Part shown: positions 2,022-17,444 of the stretch, one piece after another
Layout: the number at the start of each line of letters is the position of its first letter
How positions within the stretch are numbered: position 1 is the stretch's first letter
Assembly: GCA_016178625.1 (NCBI GenBank)
Contig: JACOSX010000028.1
Span: forward strand, 1-38,279
DNA from: Ignavibacteria bacterium
GTDB lineage: Bacteria > Bacteroidota > Ignavibacteria > UBA10030 > SZUA-254
DNA length: 38,279 nt
Direction: 5' to 3'
Notes under the pieces: model-generated
Seen by the model: the letters and a program-made list of their open reading frames with translations, nothing else
The model's database searches: none
What the model was told of the DNA's origin: nothing
Translations under genes and position numbers: made by a program

Positions 2022-2135
2022 GTGGTAAGCACTTCCATTGATGTTGTGCGGCCGCTTCTCGCTATTTTCCCGCTGGGCGTTTCCCTTCTCCTTATTAACC
2101 TCCTCGTCGTTTTGGCGCTGTTTATTAACAGCTAA
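2022..2135 (+). CDS. Branched-chain amino acid leader (attenuator) peptide, 37 codons
   Basis: GTG-initiated reading MVSTSIDVVRPLLAIFPLGVSLLLINLLVVLALFINS*, with TAA at 2133-2135. By my count 20 of the 36 residues after the start are L/V/I, including LLLINLLVVLALFI. Below the ORF-track size cutoff. Start codon and RBS are not strong; an in-frame GTG also exists at 1989. Confidence 0.75.
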   Translation: MVSTSIDVVRPLLAIFPLGVSLLLINLLVVLALFINS

Positions 2136-2233
2136 CTAAACGCCAGAGGTTAACTAAGCCCACACCAACATATAATCCCAACAGTTTAAACGGTTAAGCA
2201 AGGTTCCCTCTGGCGGACAAGAGGATTTTTTTT
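2111..2233 (+). promoter_or_regulatory. Ribosome-mediated transcription attenuator (protector/antiterminator/terminator)
   Basis: Protector: TTTGGC (2111-2116) with GCCAGA (2142-2147), stacked on hairpin GCTGTT-TATT-AACAGC (2117-2132). Antiterminator: CGCCAGAGG (2141-2149) with CCTCTGGCG (2207-2215), 9 bp perfect. Terminator: CCTCT (2207-2211) with AGAGG (2220-2224), followed by A and T8 (2226-2233). The stems are mutually exclusive by overlap. Confidence 0.72.
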
Positions 2234-2255: not shown

Positions 2256-3965
2256 ATGAACAATGGAACAGGCGATAACCGTCGAAGCAAGCTGATCACG
2301 TATGGGGCGCAGCGCTCTCCTAATCGCGCTATGCTTCGTGCTGTTGGATTCAGCGATCAGGATTTTGAGAAGCCGATCATTGGTGTCGCAAACGGCTATA
2401 GCACCATCACACCATGCAACATGGGTCTGAACGTCCTGGCAGGATGCGCAGAGTCCGCTCTGCGACGAGCCGGCACTATGCCTCAAGTCTTTGGCACAAT
2501 CACCGTGAGCGATGGGATTTCCATGGGAACGGAAGGGATGAAGTACTCGCTTGTTTCCCGCGAAGTGATCGCCGACTCCATCGAAACGGTATGTAATGCT
2601 CAGCGCCTGGATGGACTGCTGGCGATTGGCGGGTGCGATAAGAATATGCCGGGGGCAATGATCGCTATTGCCCGAATGGACATCCCCGCGATCTTCGTGT
2701 ATGGAGGAACGATCAAAGCCGGTCACCTCGATGGGAAAGATCTCACCGTTGTCAGCGCGTTTGAAGCTGTGGGGCAGTTTGGTGCCCGAAAGATCAACCA
2801 GACCCAGTTACTGGAGGTGGAGCGCCACGCTTGTCCCGGTGCCGGCGCGTGCGGTGGCATGTTCACCGCGAATACAATGTCCTCCGCGTTCGAAGCAATG
2901 GGCATGAGTTTGATATATTCTTCGACAATGGCTGCGGAAGACGCTGAGAAAGTCGAGAGTGCGGCACTATCTGCAAAAGTCCTCGCCAACGCAGTTCACA
3001 AACAAATCCTTCCGAGTCAGATCCTCACCCGTAAAGCGTTTGAAAATGCAATTTCAGTTGTAATGGCGATTGGAGGCTCAACAAACGCCATATTACATCT
3101 GCTTGCTATCGCACACGCTATGGATGTGACGTTGTCTCTTGATGACTTCGAGGACATTCGCTCTCGTGTGCCAGTTTTGTGTGATCTGAAACCTTCCGGA
3201 AAATATGTAACAACCGATTTCCATAAGGCAGGTGGTGTGCCGCAAGTGATGAAAATGCTTCTGGAGCATGATCGTCTTCACGGGGATGCGCTCACGATTA
3301 CCGGTCAAACCATTGCTGAGGTGTTAGCGGATGTCCCATCGACGTCGCGTTCGAATCAAGAAGTTATCCGACCATGGGCTGATCCACTCTACTCACAGGG
3401 TCATCTTGCCATTTTGAAAGGTAATCTTGCAACGGAAGGGGCAGTTGCAAAAATCACTGGCGTGAAGAATCCCAAAATGACCGGCCCTGCTCGGGTTTTC
3501 GATTCTGAAGAAACTTGCCTCGAAGCAATTTTAACGGAAAGAATTAAGCCGGGGGATGTCATAGTTATTCGCTATGAAGGTCCAAAAGGGGGACCCGGCA
3601 TGCGTGAGATGCTCGCACCGACTTCGGCCCTTATTGGTGCCGGGTTAGGCGATTCAGTAGGGCTTATTACCGATGGACGATTCTCCGGTGGAACGTTTGG
3701 TATGGTCGTTGGACATGTCTCTCCGGAAGCGGCCGTCGGTGGGACGATTGCCTTGGTGCAGGAAAACGATTCAATCACCGTCGATGCCGAAGCGCGCTTA
3801 TTGCAGCTCAATGTAACAGAGGATGAACTTACGCGTCGCCGAGCCCGGTGGTGCGCACCCGAGCCACGCTATACAACAGGCGTCTTGGCGAAATACGCAA
3901 CGTTAGTTTCGAGCAGCAGTCTTGGTGCAGTTACTGATTTGAATTTGAATGGAATGCGATCATGA
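2256..3965 (+). CDS. ilvD: Dihydroxy-acid dehydratase
   Basis: 569 aa. [39 protein letters not shown] and [19 protein letters not shown] are IlvD/Edd hallmarks. Confidence 0.97.
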
Positions 3966-5770
3966 TTCTAAATAGAACATCCGTATCGGCTCAGGAAGAA
4001 CTGTTGATGCCGGCGAAATCAATGACCACAACTTCTGAAAAGCTCATGACCGGATCGGAAATTTTTGTTCAATGTTTGATCGCCGAAGGTGTGGACGTGG
4101 TTTTCGGTTATCCGGGTGGCGCAAACATTGGGATTTACGATGCCTTGCATGATGCTGTTGCCATTAAACACGTGCTCGTAAGACATGAACAGGGTGCAAC
4201 TCATGCGGCGGAGGGCTACGCCAAGGCTACCGGTAAACCCGGCGTAGTGCTTGTCACCTCAGGGCCCGGTGCAACAAATACTGTCACCGGTATCGCTGAT
4301 GCATTCATGGATTCCATTCCAATCGTAGTCTTCACGGGCCAAGTTCCACTCAAGCTCATCGGCAATGATGCCTTTCAGGAAGCGGATATCGTTGGCATCA
4401 CTCGACCGATCACCAAGCACAATTACTTAGTACGCGATATCAGAGAATTGGCAAAGACAATAAAAGAAGCATTTTACATTGCCACGACCGGGCGACCTGG
4501 TCCTGTGCTTGTTGATCTGCCGAAAGATATCATGGCGCAGAAGACGACGTTCGAGTATCCTCAGCACGTGGAGCTGCGAAGCTATAAGCCGATCGTTGAT
4601 GTGGATATCATGCAAATCATGAAGGCTGTTAAGCTTATCAATGAAGCGAAGCGCCCGGTTCTGTATGTCGGTGGAGGTGCGATCCAATCGAATGCTTCGG
4701 CTGAGTTGAAAGCGTTAGCAGAGAAAATGCAATGCCCTGTGACGACGACTCTTCACGGCCTCGGTTCGTTTCCTGAAGATAATCCGCTCTCCATGGGGAT
4801 GCTCGGCATGCACGGCACGTGGTACAGCAACATCGCCGTAAGTATGTGTGATGTTCTCATTGCAGTCGGGGCTCGTTTCGATGATCGTGTGACAGGCAAT
4901 GTGAACGCCTTCGCATCCAATGCAAAAAAAATTCACATCGATATTGATCCAGCGTGCATCAGTAAGAACGTTGTAGCAGATGCTCCTATTGTCGGCGATG
5001 TGAAAAACGTGTTGACGAAGTTGATGGATCTTGTTCATCGGGTCGATACCCACGATTGGCTTGCGACGATCGAGCAATGGAAAAAAGAACATCCGCTCAG
5101 GTACACACATGGGAAAGAAATTCGTTCGCAGTATGTTATTCACAAGCTTGGTGAGATTACTAAGGGTAATGCCATTCTTGTTACTGATGTCGGTCAACAC
5201 CAGATGTGGACGGCACAGTTCTTCAATTGGATCCACCCGCGCTCGCACATTACCTCTGGCGGATTAGGAACAATGGGGTTCTCACTACCGGCGGCAATGG
5301 GTGCGGCGTTTGGACGGAAGGATCTCTCCGTGATCTCGATCAGCGGCGACGGGGGCATTCAGATGAACATTCAGGAGCTTGCAACCATTGTTGAGCATAA
5401 GCTTCCGTTGAAAATCTTTGTGATCAACAATGGGTTCCTTGGGATGGTGCGGCAGTGGCAGGAACTGTTCTATGAGCGACGATACTCACAGGTAGCACTA
5501 CGCAACCCGGATTTCGTCAAGCTCGCGGAAGCCTATGGATGTCGAGCGTACAAAGTAACGGAGAGTTCTGAAGTTGAGGGTGTCGTTCGGAACGCAATGG
5601 CATATAACGACGGACCCGTTTTTGTGGAATTCGTAGTTGCGCAAGAGGATAATGTGTTCCCGATGATGCCCTCAGGCCAGACCGTCAATGAGATGATTGA
5701 TACACCCGATCCCGTGAATAAGAATGGACAACCTGACCATAAAGGGTTATCCATCCTGGAAAAAGGATAA
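3962..5770 (+). CDS. ilvB: Acetolactate synthase large subunit
   Basis: 602 aa TPP enzyme: [68 protein letters not shown]. Start overlaps ilvD stop (ATGA). The true start may be an internal ATG nearer GSEIFVQCL. Confidence 0.96.
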
Positions 5771-5773
5771 GAG

Positions 5774-6334
5774 ATGGACAACATAGTATCACACATACAG
5801 ATATCGCACAGAGCACGGGCGCAAGCAAACGGTGAAGAACATTTTCAGAAGCACACGATTTCAATTCTCATGGAGAACAACTTCGGGGCATTCAATAGGA
5901 TCGCGGGATTGTTCGCCGCAAAAGGATACAATATCGAAAGCATCACAGTTGGTCCGACTGAAGAAAAGGATGTTTCACGGATGACCATTGTGACTCGCGG
6001 AGATAACCAGGTCATTGAACGAATAATCAAACAGCTTCATAAACTCGTTGATACCATCACCGTTGCTGATCTAACGTTCGACAGTTTCGTTGAACGGGAT
6101 CTTATCCTGGTCAAAGTTCAGTCAACTCCTGAAACACGGTCGGAGATCATGCAGATCGCCGAGATCTTCCGCGCCAAAGTTGTGGATATCAGTCCGGAGA
6201 CATTGACAGTTGAAGCGACGGGGAGTCAGCTGAAAGTTGATGCTATCATTAAAATGTTGAGGCCGTTTGGCATTAAAGAGTTAGCGCGGACAGGAAGGGT
6301 TGCATTAAAACGCGAATTCCAAGGTGAAGTCTAA
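5774..6334 (+). CDS. ilvN: Acetolactate synthase small (regulatory, ACT-domain) subunit
   Basis: 186 aa; [47 protein letters not shown] is the classic IlvN/IlvH ACT domain. Confidence 0.95.
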
Positions 6335-7430
6335 AGAACACCAAGCAGGGAATGACACTACAAATGAACAAGATGGTTTGGTATATCGTATGATCATTGT
6401 TATGAAAGCTGGGGCTTCCCAGCACCAAATTGAACATGTGTTTGAGAAAGTTCGTGAACTTGGATTTCAGGCTCATCCAATATATGGCGAGCTGAGAACC
6501 GTGATCGCCTGTGTAGGAGATGAACGAGGGAAATCGCGGTTACAAGCTCTTGATTCTCTCGATAGTGTTGAAAGCGTTGTTCCCATTCTGAAACCGTTTA
6601 AACTTGCAAGCAAGGAATGGAAAAGAGAGAAGACAGCGATTAATCTTAGGTCGGCAACATCAAACGGGGAAGCATTCGTGTCAATTGGAAACAATCAGTT
6701 TGTTGTCATGGCGGGACCGTGTTCGGTGGAAAGTCGGGAACAAATTCTCGCAAGCGCCCAGCAGGTGAAAAATGCCGGAGCGCGGATTCTCCGCGGTGGT
6801 GCCTTCAAACCAAGAACCTCCCCCTACAGTTTCCAAGGACTTGAGGAAGAAGGTCTGAAACTTCTCGCCGAGGCAAGAGAGAAGACCGGATTGTTTATTG
6901 TCACCGAAGTGATAACTCCAACTGACGTTCCGGTGGTTGCAGACTATGCTGACATCCTTCAACTTGGAGCGCGGAATATGCAAAACTTCGCCCTCTTGAA
7001 GGAAGTTGGCAAGACAAAAAAACCCGTGCTGTTAAAACGAGGGATGTCGTGTACTCTCAAAGAGCTTTTGATGTCGGCGGAATACATCATGTCGCAGGGA
7101 AATTATCAGGTGATTCTCTGTGAGCGTGGCATTCGCACATTCGAAGATTACACGCGCAATACCTGTGATTTGTCTGCTGTTCCGGCGTTAAAAGAAATGA
7201 GTCACCTTCCTGTCATCGTCGATCCAAGTCACGGCACTGGAATTCGTACTCTTGTGACACCACTAGCAAAAGCAGCGGTCGCGGTTGGCGCTGATGGATT
7301 ATTGATTGAAGTTCACCCCAATCCTGAAGAGGCATTTTCAGATGGTGCTCAGTCGTTACTTCCTAATCAATTTGAAGAGTTGATGGAGTGGGTGAAAAAG
7401 TTAGTTCAGCTTGAAGGTAGGAAACTATAG
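6324..7430 (+). CDS. aroF: 3-deoxy-7-phosphoheptulonate synthase with N-terminal ferredoxin-like domain
   Basis: [22 protein letters not shown]-terminal domain, then [46 protein letters not shown] and DPSHGTGIR. The likely real start is the in-frame ATG at 6390 rather than GTG 6324. Confidence 0.93.
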
Positions 7431-7445
7431 GGAAAGATTTCAACG

Positions 7446-9125
7446 GTGGAAGAACGCATATACATTTTTGATACTACACTGCGCGACGGTGAGCAATCGC
7501 CGGGTGCAACGATGACGTCTGCTGAGAAGTTAGAAGTGGCGCGTGCGCTTGCCAGAATGGGTGTCGATATCATTGAGGCGGGGTTTCCCGCTGCATCCCC
7601 CGACGACCTCGAAGCTGTACGCCGCATCGCTGTGGAAGTTGGGTCAACGGTTGCAACTCCCAGTGGCGATCCGCCGATCATCTGTGGTCTCGCCCGGACA
7701 AACAGGAATGATATCGACAAGGCGTGGGAAGCCATACGCCATGCCGTTCGTCCACGCATTCACACATTCATTGCGACGTCCGAAATCCATATGCAATACA
7801 AATTGAAGATGACCCGCGGGCAAGTAGTTGAGCGAGTGAAAGAAATGGTCGCGTATGCGCGCACGCTGTGTGAGAATGTGGAATTCAGTTGTGAAGATGC
7901 AGGCCGGAGCGATTCTGAGTTTTTATATCTCGTGCTGGGTGAAGCAGTGAACGCTGGTGCTACAACTCTGAATATACCAGATACAGTTGGTTATACAATG
8001 CCAGATGAGTTCGGAGCGTTGATCTCAGGGATCATTCAACACACACCCGGGATAGAACAGTGCGTCGTCTCCGTCCACTGCCATAACGATCTTGGTATGG
8101 CTACTGCTAATACACTGGCGGGTCTTCGTGCCGGTGCTCGCCAGGCAGAGGTGACGATTAACGGCATCGGTGAGCGAGCGGGGAATACTTCTCTTGAAGA
8201 AGTGGTGATGTCACTTCATACCCGCAGTTCGGTGTTCAACCTCACAACAGGTATCGATACGCCGCAGATCATGCGTGTCAGCAAACTGGTGAGCAACTAT
8301 ACCGGCATCGTCGTGCAACCGAACAAAGCTATCGTTGGCGCAAATGCGTTTGCTCATGAAGCAGGCATCCATCAGGATGGAATGCTCAAGCATCAGCAGA
8401 CGTATGAGATCATGCGCCCGGAAACAGTCGGCGTCAGCCAAACACGACTTGTATTAGGAAAGCATTCTGGTCGGCATGCCTTCAAGACGCGTTTGGCAGA
8501 GTTGGGATACAGTTTCAACGAAGCTGAGCTTGTCAAGGCGTTTGCGCGTTTCAAGAATCTTGCTGACAAAAAGAAGATTATTACTGATGCTGATCTCGAG
8601 GCAATCGCATCGGATGAACTTTATCAGCCACGTGAAATTTTCACGCTTGATGGCTTGCAGGTTGCCTGTGGAACTATCGGCATGCCCACAGCAACTGTAC
8701 GTTTGCGCGGTCCGGACGGTCGGTTGTTTGTGCAAGCATCTGTGGGAACTGGTCCCGTTGACGCGAGCTACAAAGCGATTGACTGTATTGTTCAAGCACC
8801 AAATACGCTGCTTGAATTCTCTGTCCATGCTGTTACAGAGGGAATTGATGCTCTCGGCGAAGTTACCGTACGAATCGGAGGAAGAAATGGTCAGCACGTA
8901 CTCAATGCTCAGAACGAAAGTGACCTTCCCCGCACCTTTGGTGGATACGGTGCAGATACGGACATCATTGTCGCAAGCGCCAAGGCTTACCTCAGCGCGC
9001 TCAACAAATTACTCGTGACGACAGGGGGCTTCAGCGATGAACCTGAACGCGTTGCAGAACTCAGTGCGGGAACACTTTCGCAAAATCAATCTACCCATTT
9101 AATGACAACAACAGAATCACGATGA
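7446..9125 (+). CDS. leuA: 2-isopropylmalate synthase
   Basis: 559 aa; [70 protein letters not shown], plus a C-terminal LeuA-dimer domain. Confidence 0.96.
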
Positions 9126-10534
9126 AACCTCAAACGCTTTTCGAGAAAGTTTGGAACGAACATATTGTTGCCCAGGAACCGGAGTCACCTGCTGTGCTCT
9201 ACATTGATCTCCACCTAATCCACGAGGTGACATCGCCGCAGGCGTTCTCAGGTCTTAGACGACGAAGACTCAAGGTCAGACGACCGGATAAAACTGTGGC
9301 GACGGTCGATCATAGTGTCCCCACGCGTGATGTATCACTTCCCATACGAGATCCACTTGCGGCAAAACAGATTGCACAGTTGGAGGAGAATGCGCGAGAG
9401 TTCGGTGTGAGATTGTACGGTATGAACAGCCCTCGCCGTGGCATCGTCCATGTGATCGGTCCTGAACTTGGCTTAACGCAGCCGGGGATGACGATCGTCT
9501 GCGGCGACAGCCATACGTCAACGCACGGTGCATTCGGAGCGTTGGCATTCGGCATCGGTACGAGTGAGGTTGAGCATGTCCTTGCCACGCAATGTTTGCT
9601 TCAACGGAAGCCTAAGACGTGCGAGGTGCGCGTTGATGGGAAGCTCTCACCGGGTGTTACAGCAAAGGACGTTATTCTCGCACTCCTTGCCAACATCGGT
9701 ATTGGAGGCGGCACAGGACATGTCTTCGAATACACCGGTTCCGCGATCCGGGCTCTCACCATGGAACAGCGAATGACGATTTGCAACATGTCGATTGAGG
9801 GCGGTGCGCGTGCTGGGATGATCGCTCCAGATGATGCAACATTTGAATTCATAGCAGGCAAGGAGTTCGCACCAAAAGACGAAGCATGGGATGCCGCTCT
9901 TCATCGATGGAAAAATCTTCCTTCTGGCGAGGGTGCATATTATGATAAAACTATCATGCTGAACGCAAGTGAGATTGCTCCAATGATTACTTATGGAACA
10001 AATCCTGGGATGGGCATTCCGGTAACCAGTAATGTGCCTGACCCTGACCGATTCACCGATGCATCACAAAAGTTGGCCCTGCGGAAGGCACTTGAATACA
10101 TGGATCTTAGGCCGGGACAGCCGCTCATTGGACATCCGATTGATGTCGTGTTCATCGGAAGCTGTACGAATTCACGGATCTCGGATTTGCGGCTTGCCGC
10201 ATCGCTTCTCAAGGATCGAAAGGTTGCGCCAAACATACGCGTCCTGATAGTCCCGGGTTCACAAGATGTGAAGATTCAATCAGAGGCAGAGGGGTTGGAT
10301 AAAATCTTCAAAGCCGCCGGCGCCGAATGGCGAGAAGCCGGCTGCTCGATGTGTATTGCAATGAATGGTGATGAACTTCAACCTGGTCAGTATGCCGTGA
10401 GCACCAGCAACCGTAATTTCGAAGGTCGGCAGGGTAAAGGCGGTCGAACGTTCCTGGCATCACCCCTCACAGCAGCGGCAGCAGCAATTACTGGAACAAT
10501 TACCGACGTTCGCACTTTGATATCGACAAACTGA
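9122..10534 (+). CDS. leuC: 3-isopropylmalate dehydratase large subunit
   Basis: 470 aa; [65 protein letters not shown]. Confidence 0.96.
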
Positions 10535-10557
10535 AATTTAAAAAATCAAAAACCATT

Positions 10558-11145
10558 ATGGCATCTTTTACAACACTTACATCTCGAGTTCTGCCCCTTC
10601 TGGTGAACGATATTGATACTGACCAGATTATTCCTGCTCGCTTCCTGAAGGCAATCGATAAGCTTGGCTTGTCCGAAGGGTTATTTTACGATTGGCGGTA
10701 TAATGCAGACGGCTCGCCGAAGCGTGATTTTATCTTAAACAAGCCTGAAGCGAAAGGCGCTCAAATACTTTTGGCAGGCGATAATTTTGGATGTGGTTCA
10801 TCTCGTGAACATGCCCCGTGGGCACTCATGGGCTTTGGGTTCCGCGCTGTCATCAGTACGTCGTTTGCCGATATTTTCTGTAATAATGCGTTGAAGAATG
10901 GACTTCTTCCCATCATCGTTAGCGCACAAGGTCATAACGAATTGCGGGAGTTGGTAGAGAACACCCCAAGTGCCCAATTGACAATTGATCTTGCGGCACA
11001 GACTGTCAAGCTGCCCGATGGAACATCATTCCAGTTTCCCATTGATGGTTTTTCAAAAGCATGCTTGCTGAACGGCGTTGACGAACTTGGTTATATACTT
11101 CGTTTCGAAGACAACATTACTGCATACGAAACACTGCATCGGTAA
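10558..11145 (+). CDS. leuD: 3-isopropylmalate dehydratase small subunit
   Basis: 195 aa; NDIDTDQIIPARFLK, GDNFGCGSSREHAPWAL. Confidence 0.95.
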   Translation: MASFTTLTSRVLPLLVNDIDTDQIIPARFLKAIDKLGLSEGLFYDWRYNADGSPKRDFILNKPEAKGAQILLAGDNFGCGSSREHAPWALMGFGFRAVISTSFADIFCNNALKNGLLPIIVSAQGHNELRELVENTPSAQLTIDLAAQTVKLPDGTSFQFPIDGFSKACLLNGVDELGYILRFEDNITAYETLHR

Positions 11146-11154
11146 GGTGACCAT

Positions 11155-12057
11155 ATGGAAAAACATCAAGTTCACGTTGTCAATCAAACAATGCACCATC
11201 ACGTTCTTAATCGTTCCATAGCAGTTGTAGGCTCTGGTAACATGGGAACGGCATTGATGAAAGGAATCATCAATGCAAAATTGACTACGCCCGAAAAAAT
11301 CGTTGCGTGTGGGATTCACCTTGGTAAACTTCAAAATCTTTCAGCTCAATGGAATATCGGACACACGCTGAATCCTCTAGAGGCCGTCGAAACATCGGAG
11401 ATTGTGTTGCTTTGTGTCAAGCCCCAGACTGTGCCGAAGGTTCTCGATCAGATCAAGGGTTCTCTGCACGAACGGCACGTATTGATTTCCATCGCCGCCG
11501 GCATGAAGATTGAGTACTTTCAGAAACGCATCGGAAAAAATTTGCCGGTGGTGCGCGCCATGCCCAACATCGCTTCCACAGTGGATGAAGGGGCAACAGC
11601 GCTTTCCTTTGGTGCATGTGTTTCCGAGGAACAGCAGCGCATTGCAATCTCCATTTTCGAGGCGGTCGGTGAAGTGGTTGTCGTCGCAGAGGAACAGCTT
11701 GATGCAGTCACCGGCCTGAGCGGCAGCGGTCCCGCATACATTTATATGGTGATCGAAGCACTGATCGATGGAGGTGTGAAGATGGGATTATCTCGAGAGA
11801 TCTCAACGAGATTGGCAGTCCAAACCGTTCTTGGCTCAGCGAAGCTTGTGAAAACATCAGGCTTACATCCAGCAATTTTGCGAGATCAAGTCACTACTCC
11901 CGCGGGAACCGCTATTAATGCAATTCATGAGCTTGAGTCACACGGATTACGTTCGATGTTAATTAACGCGGTAGCCACAGCGACACGCCGCTCTGAAGAA
12001 ATCAGTCAGTCTTTCAGCAAACCAAACTATCAGAATGACAAGGCAGGGGATTCGTAA
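11155..12057 (+). CDS. proC: Pyrroline-5-carboxylate reductase
   Basis: 300 aa; IAVVGSGNMGTALMKGI Rossmann motif, RAMPNIASTVDEGATAL, GLSGSGPAYIYMVIEALIDGGVKMGL, TTPAGTAINAIHELE. Confidence 0.93.
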   Translation: MEKHQVHVVNQTMHHHVLNRSIAVVGSGNMGTALMKGIINAKLTTPEKIVACGIHLGKLQNLSAQWNIGHTLNPLEAVETSEIVLLCVKPQTVPKVLDQIKGSLHERHVLISIAAGMKIEYFQKRIGKNLPVVRAMPNIASTVDEGATALSFGACVSEEQQRIAISIFEAVGEVVVVAEEQLDAVTGLSGSGPAYIYMVIEALIDGGVKMGLSREISTRLAVQTVLGSAKLVKTSGLHPAILRDQVTTPAGTAINAIHELESHGLRSMLINAVATATRRSEEISQSFSKPNYQNDKAGDS

Positions 12058-13624
12058 AACGATGGACACGATCGTCCACATCTATGACACAACATTACGA
12101 GATGGTACTCAACGGGAGGGGATATCACTCTCGTGCGACGATAAATTGAAGATTGCCCGTAAGCTCGATGACCTCGGTGTGGATTTCATCGAAGGTGGCT
12201 GGCCCGGCTCGAATCCAAAGGATGAGGAATTTTTCAGACGAGCGCAACACCTTAAGTTACACCACGCTGTCATCACAGCATTTGGATCGACGTGTCGCGT
12301 CAACGGCAATCCAAAAGACGACCCCAATATCAAGGCGTTGCTTGATGCCAACACAAGCGTTTGTACTATTGTCGGCAAAACCTCCATGTTACATGTTACC
12401 GACGTCCTGCGCACGACGGCTGGTGAAAACTTGAGGATTATCGAACAGAGTATTGCCTATCTCGTACAGCACGGTCGCCGTGTGTTCTACGACGCCGAAC
12501 ACTACTTCGATGGTTATAAGCTCGATACGGAGTATGCTTTGGAGACGCTACGAGCCGCTCATCGTGGTGGTGCCGAAATCAGCATCTTGTGCGATACGAA
12601 CGGCGGTGCAATGCCTTGGGAGGTTGAGGAGATCGTTTGTGCCACGAGAGATGAATTGGATATGTCGTTGGGGATTCACACGCACAATGATGGTGAATGT
12701 GCGGTTGCCAATGCTCTTGCCGCAGTGAGAAAAGGGTGTGTGCAGGTTCAGGGAACGATCAATGGTTATGGAGAACGCTGCGGTAATGCAAATCTTATTT
12801 CTGTTATCTGTAATCTTCAACTGAAGATGGGATACAAATGTTTGCCCGAAACTGGTCTTCAGCATCTCACGGAATTAGCACACCTTATCGCAGAGGTGGC
12901 AAATCTCGCTCCCGATGAACACATGGCGTATGTTGGTAATTCTGCGTTTGCGCATAAAGGTGGTATCCACGTTGCAGCCATTCGGCGTAACCCGAATTCT
13001 TACCAGCATATCGATCCACACATTGTCGGTAACAAGACGCGGGTTGTTGTTTCGGAATTATCAGGCAGAGGAAATCTTCTGAGCAAAGCCGAGGAGTTTG
13101 AGTTGGAAGTCCATGCCGAAGAAGATCTCGCCCATGTGCTCGATGAGATCAAGGCGCTCGAAGCGAAAGGCGGTTCCTTCGAAGCCGCAGAAGCCTCCGT
13201 GGCGATGATGCTTAAACGGTTGCAGAAAGAGTACAAGCCACCATTTGAGCTGGTGGACCTCACGGTGAATGTTGAACACCGGCAGGGACGCGGTATCTTT
13301 GCCGAAGCTACAGTGAAGGTGAAGGTGAATGGCGAGGTAATCCACACTGTCGCAGAAGGTGTTGGTCCGGTTCACGCTCTGGACAGTGCATTGAGGAAAG
13401 CCCTCGTGCCAGTCTATCCGGCTCTCCAGGAATTCCAGCTTGCTGATTATAAGGTCCGTATTCTCGACGGGGACAATGGCACAGCAGCTACCACTCGCGT
13501 CCTTATCGACACCCAGAACGGAACAAAGCGCTGGAGTACCGTTGGCGCAAGTGCAAACATCATCGAAGCAAGTTGGTATGCACTGGCTGATAGCATAGAG
13601 TACGGATTAACGTTAACAGATTAA
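12035..13624 (+). CDS. cimA: (R)-citramalate synthase
   Basis: HIYDTTLRDGTQREGISLSCDDKLKIARKLDDLGVDFIEGGWPGSNPKD, HTHNDGECAVANALAAVRKGCVQVQGTINGYGERCGN. CimA-type rather than LeuA-type. Likely start is ATG 12062. Confidence 0.93.
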   Translation: MTRQGIRKTMDTIVHIYDTTLRDGTQREGISLSCDDKLKIARKLDDLGVDFIEGGWPGSNPKDEEFFRRAQHLKLHHAVITAFGSTCRVNGNPKDDPNIKALLDANTSVCTIVGKTSMLHVTDVLRTTAGENLRIIEQSIAYLVQHGRRVFYDAEHYFDGYKLDTEYALETLRAAHRGGAEISILCDTNGGAMPWEVEEIVCATRDELDMSLGIHTHNDGECAVANALAAVRKGCVQVQGTINGYGERCGNANLISVICNLQLKMGYKCLPETGLQHLTELAHLIAEVANLAPDEHMAYVGNSAFAHKGGIHVAAIRRNPNSYQHIDPHIVGNKTRVVVSELSGRGNLLSKAEEFELEVHAEEDLAHVLDEIKALEAKGGSFEAAEASVAMMLKRLQKEYKPPFELVDLTVNVEHRQGRGIFAEATVKVKVNGEVIHTVAEGVGPVHALDSALRKALVPVYPALQEFQLADYKVRILDGDNGTAATTRVLIDTQNGTKRWSTVGASANIIEASWYALADSIEYGLTLTD

Positions 13625-13651
13625 TTATTCAATACATTTTCGAAACATGAA

Positions 13652-14722
13652 ATGAAATCAACGATCGTAGTTCTTCCCGGCGATGGCATTGGTCCCGAGG
13701 TCACTGAAGAAGCAGTGCGCGTATTGCAGGATGTTGGTTCAAAGTTCGGTCACGAATTTACATTCACTGACTATCTGATTGGGGGGCGCTCCATCGATAG
13801 GTTCGGTACTGCGCTCACCGCGGAAACTCTCGCCGCATGTAAAGCCTCAGACGCGGTTCTACTCGGCGCCGTCGGTGGACCCAAGTGGGATGATCCTCAC
13901 GCGAAGGTTCGTCCGGAACAGGGGCTTCTCGCTCTCCGAAAAGAGTTAGGGTTGTATGCCAATCTCCGCCCGGTGAAACCATTCCCTGTCTTGGTGAATG
14001 TATCACCGCTAAAACCTGAGAAACTTAAATTTGTCGATCTCATCGTTGTTCGTGAGCTTACGGGAGGATTATATTTCGGCAAGCCTCGCGGGCGTGATCG
14101 TGTAAATGGCTTCGTCCGCGCAGTGGATACGATGGAATACTATGATTACGAAATCAAACGTGTTGTCGAGTTTGCTTTCAAACTTGCAAAGAGTCGCCGT
14201 AAGAAAGTGACGTCAGTTGATAAGGCAAACGTGCTCGAGACTTCGCGGCTTTGGCGGCAAACGGCCGTAGCTGTTGCTTCTGGACATGTAGACGTTCTTC
14301 TGGAACACATGCTGGTCGATACTGCGTCCGTGCGTCTGATTACCTCCCCCTCCAGCTTTGATGTGGTCGTGACAGAGAATATGTTTGGTGATATTCTTAC
14401 CGATGAAGTGTCGGTATTAACGGGATCGATGGGAATGCTTCCGTCCGCATCACTTGGTGATAACGGACCCGGCGTTTATGAACCTGTTCACGGTTCGGCG
14501 CCTGATATTGCCGGAAAAGGAATTGCTAATCCCATTGGAGCAATACTCAGTGCGGCGATGCTGTTGCGCTATTCACTGCATCTCGAGCGAGAGTCTGTTG
14601 CGATCGAAACAGCGGTTGATCAGGCGGTTACCAATACTCTGCGCCCCATGGATCTCGGCGGCAGACTGAATACTCGACAGATGACGGATAGAATTATCGC
14701 ACATATAGTATCAAATCAATGA
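13652..14722 (+). CDS. leuB: 3-isopropylmalate dehydrogenase
   Basis: 356 aa; LPGDGIGPEVTEEA, VRELTGGLYFGKPRG, SVDKANVLETSRLWRQTA, EPVHGSAPDIAGKGIANPIG. Confidence 0.96.
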   Translation: MKSTIVVLPGDGIGPEVTEEAVRVLQDVGSKFGHEFTFTDYLIGGRSIDRFGTALTAETLAACKASDAVLLGAVGGPKWDDPHAKVRPEQGLLALRKELGLYANLRPVKPFPVLVNVSPLKPEKLKFVDLIVVRELTGGLYFGKPRGRDRVNGFVRAVDTMEYYDYEIKRVVEFAFKLAKSRRKKVTSVDKANVLETSRLWRQTAVAVASGHVDVLLEHMLVDTASVRLITSPSSFDVVVTENMFGDILTDEVSVLTGSMGMLPSASLGDNGPGVYEPVHGSAPDIAGKGIANPIGAILSAAMLLRYSLHLERESVAIETAVDQAVTNTLRPMDLGGRLNTRQMTDRIIAHIVSNQ

Positions 14723-15693
14723 AGGAACCGTGTATGGGAATGACATCGAAATATATCTGGATGAATGGTGAATTGGTAGAATTCGAAAAGGCTACAGTCC
14801 ATTTTTTAACCCCGGCATTACACTATGGCATTGGTGTCTTTGAGGGAATCCGCTGCTATGCCACCGATGATGGTCCGGCAGTGTTTCGGCTGGAAGATCA
14901 TGTCAATCGATTGATCAACTCTGCAAAGGTCTTGGGGTTCACCAACCTCTTGTACAGTGCGGAAGAGATTGCCGATGCAATCAAGCTTACTGTGGCAGTA
15001 AATGAATTCACCGAGTGTTATATCCGTCCCTTGATCCATTTAAGCGGTGGTGGCTGGAACCTCAATGTCGATGGAGGAAAAGCAGATGTGGGGATTGCTG
15101 TATGGGAATGGTCGAATTATTTGGGTGCCGATGCCTTGCAGTACGGCGTTCGTGCAAACATTGCCTCCTTCACGCGTCATCATCCTAACGTCATGATGAC
15201 GAAAGCGAAGATTTGTGGAAACTATGCGAACAGTTTTCTTGCAAAAACGGAATCTCTACGGTTAGGATTTGATGAAGCTATTCTTCTTGATCCTCAAGGA
15301 TACGTTGCAGAATGTACGGGTGAGAATCTTTTTATTGTGCAGAACAAGAAAATCTACACACCGAATCTTGCCCCTGTACTGGAAGGAATTACGCGCCACT
15401 CGCTTATCGCACTTGCCGGTGACCTCGGCTATGAGGTCACCGAAACGCTCATCTCACGCGATCAATTGTACACGGCTGATGAAGTGTTTGTCTGTGGTAC
15501 CGCAGCAGAATGTATTGCATTGCGGGAGATCGATTTTCGCGTGATCGGGAGCGGAAACATGGGACCGGTTACGAAGGAACTTCAGCAGGCGTTTCAATTG
15601 GCGATTCACGGCAAGCACCCTCGTTCGGCAGAGTGGCTCGACTATGTGAATGTTGCCGAGTCGCTTCCACTGCGCAGGGCAGCTTCAGCCTAA
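14719..15693 (+). CDS. ilvE: Branched-chain amino acid aminotransferase
   Basis: 324 aa fold-IV PLP enzyme; ALHYGIGVFEGIRCY, KICGNYANSFLAKTESLRLGFDEAILLDPQGYVAECTGENLFIV. Confidence 0.95.
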   Translation: MKEPCMGMTSKYIWMNGELVEFEKATVHFLTPALHYGIGVFEGIRCYATDDGPAVFRLEDHVNRLINSAKVLGFTNLLYSAEEIADAIKLTVAVNEFTECYIRPLIHLSGGGWNLNVDGGKADVGIAVWEWSNYLGADALQYGVRANIASFTRHHPNVMMTKAKICGNYANSFLAKTESLRLGFDEAILLDPQGYVAECTGENLFIVQNKKIYTPNLAPVLEGITRHSLIALAGDLGYEVTETLISRDQLYTADEVFVCGTAAECIALREIDFRVIGSGNMGPVTKELQQAFQLAIHGKHPRSAEWLDYVNVAESLPLRRAASA

Positions 15694-15741
15694 GTCACTT
15701 ACACACGAACTCTCAGTTCAACAGAAAGGGAATGCACAGCT

Positions 15742-16800
15742 ATGGCACTAATCGATTTTGGCGGTATCAAAGAGGAAGTAATCACTCGAGAAGAATTTCC
15801 GCTTGTGAAGGCGCAGCGGGTTTTGGAAAACGAAATCGTCGCAATTCTTGGATACGGTCCTCAAGGGCAGGGACAATCGTTAAACCTGCGTGACAACGGA
15901 ATTAATGTGATCGTCTATCAGCGAAAAGGAGGAAAAGGATGGAGTGATGCGATTCACGATGGTTGGGTAGAAGGCAAAAATCTTTACTCAGAAATTGATG
16001 AGGTGATGCAACAAGCATCCATCGTTCAATACCTGCTTTCGGATGCCGGGCAGAAGGAGCAATGGCACACGGTGAAAAAGAATCTGAGGAAAGGTCAGGC
16101 ATTGCACTTCTCTCACGGCTTCTCGGTTGTTTTCAAAGAACAAACGGGCGTCATCCCACCGCCGGATGTTGATGTGATCCTTGTAGCGCCGAAAGGTGCA
16201 GGACGAACCGTACGATCAAACTATCTTACAGGCAGTGGTATCAATGCGAGCTACGCAGTCTATCAGGATGCTACCGGTAGAGCCCACCAGCGTGCCGTTG
16301 CACTTGGGATTGCAATAGGTTCGGGGTATCTGTTTGCGACGACCTTCGAAAGAGAAGTATATAGTGACCTTACAGGCGAGCGCGGTGTGCTCATGGGAGC
16401 GATCGCAGGGGTCATGAAGGCTCAGTATGATACGCTTCGAGCAATGGGTCATTCGCCGAGTGAAGCGTTCAACGAGACTGTTGAAGAAGCAACACAGAGT
16501 TTGTACCCCTTGATCGGTAAGAACGGTATGGATTGGATGTTCGCCTCATGCAGCACCACAGCGCAGCGAGGCGCACTTGATTGGTCCAAGCGCTTTGAAA
16601 CCGCCGTGAAGCCTCTGTTTGAATTGCTCTACCGGAATGTGCAGGAAGGATTGGAAACGAAGCGTGTCTTGGATGCCTGTGGTGTACCTGATTACCGCGC
16701 GAAACTTCAGAAAGAATTGGATGAGTGGAAAAACTCTGAAATGTGGCGCGCCGGGGCTGTCGTTCGGTCGTTGCGACCGGAGAATCAAAAAAATGACTGA
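15742..16800 (+). CDS. ilvC: Ketol-acid reductoisomerase
   Basis: 352 aa; ILGYGPQGQGQSLNLRDNG, VILVAPKGAGRTVRSNY, EVYSDLTGERGVLMGAIAGVM. Confidence 0.95.
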   Translation: MALIDFGGIKEEVITREEFPLVKAQRVLENEIVAILGYGPQGQGQSLNLRDNGINVIVYQRKGGKGWSDAIHDGWVEGKNLYSEIDEVMQQASIVQYLLSDAGQKEQWHTVKKNLRKGQALHFSHGFSVVFKEQTGVIPPPDVDVILVAPKGAGRTVRSNYLTGSGINASYAVYQDATGRAHQRAVALGIAIGSGYLFATTFEREVYSDLTGERGVLMGAIAGVMKAQYDTLRAMGHSPSEAFNETVEEATQSLYPLIGKNGMDWMFASCSTTAQRGALDWSKRFETAVKPLFELLYRNVQEGLETKRVLDACGVPDYRAKLQKELDEWKNSEMWRAGAVVRSLRPENQKND

Positions 16801-16869
16801 CCGTCAACAATGAACACGAAGATGTTACCTCAATTATTCTCTTAATCATTTACATAGCAAGGAGATGAT

Positions 16870-17118
16870 ATGTCGATCCAGTCTAACAATGTTCATCATG
16901 CCTCTGTCCAGGATGTTGAACTATTGCTGGAACAAGAGAAGAAAGCAGTGGAAACATATTGGCACGAGGCTGCTCACATCGAAGATCCAGCACTGAAAAC
17001 ACTTTTTAAGAGACTTGCAGAACTTCGCGCACGATGTTGCGCCGAACTCGAATCGCATATGACCGAGGCAAAATCTCAAAACGTGATCGTTGGGCAAATT
17101 AATGAGATGTTCTGGTAA
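16870..17118 (+). CDS. Small helical protein, possibly ferritin/rubrerythrin-like half domain
   Basis: 82 aa ATG ORF with RBS (aaggagatgat). EQEKKAVETYWHEAAHIEDPALKTLFKRLAELRARCCAELESHM resembles one helical hairpin of rubrerythrin-like domains. Confidence 0.6.
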   Translation: MSIQSNNVHHASVQDVELLLEQEKKAVETYWHEAAHIEDPALKTLFKRLAELRARCCAELESHMTEAKSQNVIVGQINEMFW

Positions 17119-17145
17119 TATAAGAACGGCAAGAGAGGCTCACTG

Positions 17146-17382
17146 ATGAACGGAAATGCGTGCTCTGTAGATTTATGCCGGGGATCAAGTGTCGCCCGAG
17201 GGTTATGTTGGAAACATTACGTGCGGTGGCGTCGCCATGGCGATGCGCTTTTCACTAAACGTGGCTACAGAATGCCATATCACTGCCGCCGCTGTGGAAC
17301 AACAACGCCGAGTTCCTTTTACGCCTATTACAAAAGTATCTGCAAGGTTTGTCGAAAACTGAGAATCCTCCAGAAGGATTGA
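17146..17382 (+). CDS. Small protein with two candidate zinc-binding modules
   Basis: 78 aa; C-x4-C-x9-C-x2-H (CSVDLCRGSSVARGLCWKH) followed by YVRWRRHGDAL, then C-x2-C...C-x2-C (CRRC...CKVC). Resembles the zinc-finger-like N-terminus of some phage HNH proteins. Confidence 0.6.
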   Translation: MNGNACSVDLCRGSSVARGLCWKHYVRWRRHGDALFTKRGYRMPYHCRRCGTTTPSSFYAYYKSICKVCRKLRILQKD

Positions 17383-17444
17383 AGGGTTTCGAAAGGGGCA
17401 ATTGCGGAAAATTAAGGATTCGATAATAATCAGCGATGTGAAGT

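Follow-up and report, generated by a model that had tools for sequence, protein, structure and literature searches.

The leader that precedes ilvD in the 38,279-nt stretch of Ignavibacteria DNA analysed here (the window) is probably a ribosome-mediated translational attenuator of the branched-chain amino acid (BCAA) operon that senses charged Leu, Val and Ile tRNAs. This interpretation is based on computational evidence: comparison of the window with its relatives reveals a promoter, a leader ORF, three alternative helices, a restricted spacing between the leader stop codon and arm 2, and co-variation of the paired arms. A preliminary description of the same DNA had interpreted the leader as 'textbook' transcription attenuation, and all of the segments it listed were read directly where it had placed them, namely TTTGGC (2111-2116), GCTGTT-TATT-AACAGC (2117-2132), the stop codon TAA (2133-2135), CGCCAGAGG (2141-2149), CCTCTGGCG (2207-2215), AGAGG (2220-2224), and T8 (2226-2233). 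However, the region 4 that is conserved is the SD region of the downstream gene, and therefore the attenuation looks translational rather than 'textbook' transcriptional. The features of the window are as follows:

1937 to 1965, + strand: promoter TTGACA-17 nt-TATACT, matching 11 of 12 consensus positions
1989 to 2135, + strand: leader ORF of 48 codons with a putative GTG start, C-terminal residues ...GVSLLLINLLVVLALFINS, stop codon TAA at 2133-2135
2095 to 2102, + strand: arm 1 (protector), TTAACCTC, within the I/L/V codons (AAC CTC), which folds with 2146-2153
2141 to 2154, + strand: arm 2, CGCCAGAGGTTAAC, the partner of either arm 1 or arm 3, with an invariant GAGG
2202 to 2215, + strand: arm 3, GGTTCCCTCTGGCG, the partner of arm 2 (anti-sequestor) or arm 4 (sequestor)
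2207 to 2233, + strand: terminator of the preliminary description, CCTCT/AGAGG followed by T8, a consensus match with a predicted energy of -5.9 kcal/mol
2214 to 2238, + strand: predicted inner hairpin CGGACAAGAG-GAUUU-UUUUUGUCUG, nested in the sequestor (coordinates counted from the fold)
2243 to 2252, + strand: arm 4, AGAGTGAATC, the SD-like region of ilvD, 3 nt 5' of the ATG, with 9 of 10 positions pairing with 2202-2211
2256 to 3965, + strand: ilvD, dihydroxy-acid dehydratase, the directly controlled gene, scoring well over the TIGR00110 cut-off
3962 to 16800, + strand: ilvB, ilvN, DAHP synthase, leuA, leuC, leuD, proC, cimA, leuB, ilvE, and ilvC

The distribution of the element was evaluated by gathering proteins similar to the window IlvD within the window's own family, order, and class, plus a public genome collection, and by searching with a covariance model built from 16 aligned leaders. 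It was found that 42 copies are present in 37 of the 98 genomes of the order, with a second copy in five genomes, and that there are none outside the order among 394 genomes sampled from the class. Judged by translated starts and sequences, the gene after the element is ilvD in 37 copies, gltB in four (G195b, G267b, G314b, and G318b), and cimA in one (G319b). Many genomes of the order have an I/L/V-rich small ORF before ilvD followed by the same arms, and no such I/L/V-rich leader was seen before ilvD in cyanobacteria, Nitrosomonas, or other distant carriers of a similar IlvD; the leader therefore did not move along with the gene. A search of the window's genome with the covariance model (R1, E <= 1) found no second copy, for example before gltB. 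A T-box, a riboswitch, or another known leader family was rejected because the window had no Rfam match at the gathering threshold, with only chance-level matches at E values up to 10.

Two observations concern ilvD itself. The nearest relatives of the window IlvD (2256-3965) in the public genome scan are mostly cyanobacterial, with 76-80% identity, and 13 of the 14 other genomes of the window's family lack a match to it; on these sequence comparisons, the window ilvD is probably a patchy, transferred gene. Furthermore, in genus g15 (copies L141, L142, L143, and L146) the leader is retained before an ilvD whose product is only about 43-46% identical to the window IlvD, as if ilvD had been exchanged beneath a conserved leader.

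The sensor part of the leader agrees with the preliminary description, which had proposed a leader peptide with I/L/V codons. All 42 copies preserve the reading frame, and among the 22 C-terminal residues 9-17 (mean 14.4) are I/L/V, compared to 6.2 and 1.7 in the other two frames, such that the short ORF is rich in codons for the end products of the operon. The GTG start in the window is assigned tentatively, by similarity to starts in relatives. The distance from the leader stop codon to the GAGG of arm 2 is 10-15 nt in 42 of 42 copies, which supports the earlier proposal that a ribosome finishing the peptide would be positioned to mask arm 2. A TTGACA-type promoter lies 143-180 nt 5' of the leader stop codon in the 42 copies, with a consensus score of at least 10/12 in 37 of them and of 9/12 in the others.

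Mutually exclusive 1:2 and 2:3 helices are supported by the co-variation of both. The protector that had been proposed to form between TTTGGC and GCCAGA is present as segments, but the main 1:2 helix of the window sits further 5', with TTAACCTC at 2095-2102 pairing with GAGGTTAA at 2146-2153; the leader Asn-Leu codons themselves form arm 1. Across the copies, the middle base of the Asn/Ser (or Gly) codon co-varies with the base that follows the GAGG of arm 2 (A-T 13, G-C 17, G-T 5, and A-C 3; Fisher p = 0.0007), and counts of pairs yield 16 double changes versus 8.6 +/- 3.0 in shuffles. The 9-bp 2:3 helix (2141-2149 with 2207-2215) is retained in relatives with compensatory changes, having 8 double-change cells versus 1.6 +/- 1.1 in shuffles, and all four Watson-Crick pairs occur at one position; the pairing given in the preliminary description was therefore borne out by covariation. 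When arms were swapped at the genus level, both the 1:2 and the 2:3 pairing became worse in all 20,000 permutations; in these shuffle and swap tests, genera were treated as independent and relatedness was not fully removed.

In the window, the 3' half of the leader (2136-2240) has a folding energy of -28.7 kcal/mol, more stable than dinucleotide shuffles (z = -3.2), so that the 9-bp 2:3 helix exceeds chance expectation. The 1:2 state of the window has a computed energy some 4 kcal/mol below that of 2:3. The 1:2 state has the lower energy in 25 of the 42 copies. Because 1:2 and 2:3 are nearly balanced in predicted energy across copies, these energies alone do not settle which state is the default.

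The preliminary description overlooked a further pairing of arm 3: the segment 2202-2211 is also complementary to the ilvD translation start region at 2243-2252. Across the copies, arm 3 (GGUUC-N-CCUC) can base-pair with the SD region of the gene that follows, and region 4 includes the SD/start region of that gene, with weak pairing in a few copies such as G195b, G314, and G321. The mean energy of the native arm 3/SD pairing is -10.3 kcal/mol, whereas it is -9.05 +/- 0.30 kcal/mol when partners are permuted and -6.4 kcal/mol when the SD region is shuffled. The permuted controls retain the generic CCUC/GAGG match, and therefore the excess of native pairing represents matching beyond CCUC/GAGG. 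Site-specific cases of such matching are GUUCGCCU/AGGCGAAC in G207, AGUC/GACU in G171, GGUC/GAUC in G027, and UUCG/CGAA in G314b. With genus-level swapping, in which genera are treated as independent, the native value is -10.6 kcal/mol versus -9.1 +/- 0.4 kcal/mol (p = 5e-5); against the sequence immediately 3' of arm 3, co-adaptation is only weak (p = 0.035).

The effect of masking each arm on the accessibility of the start region was calculated from partition functions. The mean accessibility, 0.38 in the free RNA, rises to 0.49 when arm 1 is masked, as by a stalled ribosome, and drops to 0.33 when arm 2 is masked, as by a ribosome at the stop codon. In 40 of 42 copies, masking arm 1 is predicted to leave the SD more accessible than masking arm 2 does. 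The gain in accessibility is gone when arm 2 is shuffled (0.35 +/- 0.01).

The window SD (AGAG) is a poor one, and a clear SD is absent from several genes of the window; what counts may therefore be occlusion of the start site and not SD pairing. The intact anti-SD end of 16S rRNA (CCTCC) was found in 31 of the 98 genomes of the order, including several carriers of the element; an intact 16S tail was not found in the window's genome, in which the sole pattern match is not rRNA.

The same stretch of the window bears on whether transcription is terminated. Including the nested hairpin, the sequestor of the window folds at -18.5 kcal/mol versus -5.9 kcal/mol for the proposed terminator, and most of the T8 run forms part of the 3' strand of the nested hairpin. 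Across copies, a hairpin at this position has a moderately greater stability than in shuffles (mean z = -1.2). A lenient terminator test, which asked for a hairpin with 5 bp or more and a U tract behind it, was passed by 6 of the 42 copies, versus 0.9 +/- 1.0 in shuffles, and a T8 after the hairpin is found only in the window. As judged by these counts, a terminator was rejected as the conserved output of the family, with that of the window present but weak; CCTCT/AGAGG plus T8 is a possible secondary output confined to the window's lineage.

It could be that, in the window's family, one RNA both terminates transcription and hides the SD. The window has a T8 and its relative G002 a T6, each directly after the AGAG segment, and the SD sequestor is present in both; nevertheless, G002 fails the terminator test and the element is found in only these two sequences of the family, and we regard such a dual attenuator as unlikely. 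Classical transcription attenuation, with 3:4 being the Rho-independent terminator CCTCT/AGAGG plus T8, is less likely still. The hairpin and T8 are there in the window, more copies pass the lenient test than do shuffles, and arm 3 is weakly co-adapted with the stretch just downstream; but 36 of 42 copies fail the test, many of them having no long T run, the window stem is 5 bp with an energy of only -5.9 kcal/mol, the T run is explained as one side of the nested hairpin, and the co-variation with the SD is far stronger (p = 0.00005 versus 0.035). It is very improbable that the product of the small ORF is a hydrophobic peptide that functions in the membrane and that the RNA structure is unrelated to it: the sequence of its C-terminal half is hydrophobic and resembles a membrane segment, but the stop codon-to-arm 2 distance is fixed, the Asn/Ser-Leu codons pair with arm 2 with covariation at the level of the codon, and the genomic association is with BCAA genes only, plus gltB.

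For translational attenuation, we propose a model in which, with no ribosome on the leader, 1:2 would occupy arm 2, arm 3 would pair with the ilvD SD region (3:4) and occlude it in vivo, and ilvD would be poorly translated. When amino acids are plentiful, a ribosome at the stop codon at 2133 would cover arm 2, 3:4 would form, and ilvD would be off. When amino acids are scarce, a ribosome would stall at the I/L/V codons (about 2085-2126) and cover arm 1, with subsequent capture of arm 3 by arm 2, opening of the SD region, and translation of ilvD. The closed state would consist of 1:2 plus 3:4 and the open state of 2:3, the stalled ribosome shifting the leader from closed to open. Translational attenuation fits a leader in which 1:2 and 3:4 can persist, because the decision need not fall during transcription.

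The genes from ilvB to ilvC (3962-16800) follow one another with overlaps or with gaps of no more than 48 nt; through these overlapping or nearby start and stop codons, the effect on expression would extend at least to the genes that come next. In those relatives that were checked, large ilv/leu clusters are again headed by the element. The BCAA operon of the window has embedded in it the genes for DAHP synthase (aromatic pathway; 6324-7430) and proC (proline; 11155-12057). The gltB gene is located about 645 nt beyond ilvC, and a small ORF (ATGTCGATCCAGTCT...) with a good SD (AAGGAGAT) is present between ilvC and gltB (16801-17444).

Translational attenuators of the erm/cat type work by the stalling of a ribosome on arm 1, formation of 2:3, and freeing of the SD in arm 4. 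By analogy, the same sequence of events is proposed here, although the stall signal of erm/cat is an antibiotic plus the nascent peptide and not an amino acid shortage. The enterobacterial ilvGMEDA and leu leaders are leader-peptide transcription attenuators. Leader-peptide attenuation of an ilv operon with a transcription terminator was recently described for ilvB1 of M. tuberculosis (PMC13236596). The element resembles these ilv/leu attenuators in having I/L/V codons in the leader ORF, in the control of BCAA synthesis, in the selection of alternative hairpins by ribosome position, and in a stop codon near arm 2; unlike them, it does not end in a conserved intrinsic terminator, and the place of region 4 is taken by the first gene's SD.

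Translational attenuation has been attributed to the polycysteine leaders of mycobacterial cysteine genes (Canestrari 2020, cited in PMC9031893 and PMC13236596) and to the B. subtilis anti-TRAP leader (Chen and Yanofsky 2004, cited in PMC11255114). As described in these citing papers, both resemble the present element in that end-product codons in a leader ORF control downstream translation, and they differ in amino acid and phylum, with no sequence relation shown; relative to those descriptions, what is found here is the four-part 1:2/2:3/3:4(SD) form and the BCAA target. In the Actinobacterial LEU element before leuA, Leu codons were proposed to form a stem with the leuA SD, and a pseudoknot was proposed as well (PMC1262725). 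Like the present element, it has Leu codons in its leader ORF, and the SD of a BCAA gene takes part in an interaction. The partner of the SD in the LEU element is the Leu codon run itself; in the present element this role falls to the separate arm 3, and the partner of arm 1 is arm 2. A search of open-licence papers on the order together with attenuation and leader peptides found nothing.

The copies that precede genes other than ilvD were also inspected. In four genomes, the same leader and arms stand alone before gltB, which encodes the glutamate synthase large subunit (copies L145, L149, L150, and L153), and this arrangement suggests BCAA-controlled nitrogen assimilation. The copy before the citramalate synthase gene cimA (L152, in G319b) is degenerate, with 9 of 22 I/L/V residues, and both its start codon and its sequestor are tentative assignments.

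Attenuation through transcription termination is classically illustrated by BCAA operons. The present element is an ilv sensor combined with a translational output: the same sensor logic is used with a different output, in which the ilvD start is hidden, and the combination is kept across several families of a barely studied order. The output stage can therefore differ between lineages, and the element yields concrete codon-level predictions. No Rfam family covers the element, and we think it fairly likely that it represents an undescribed family of BCAA-sensing translational attenuators limited to one Ignavibacteria-related order, which would control the ilv/leu operon and, through separate copies, gltB and cimA. 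The separate gltB copies would tie branched-chain supply to glutamate synthesis, such that a shortage of BCAAs may also set nitrogen assimilation in these organisms.
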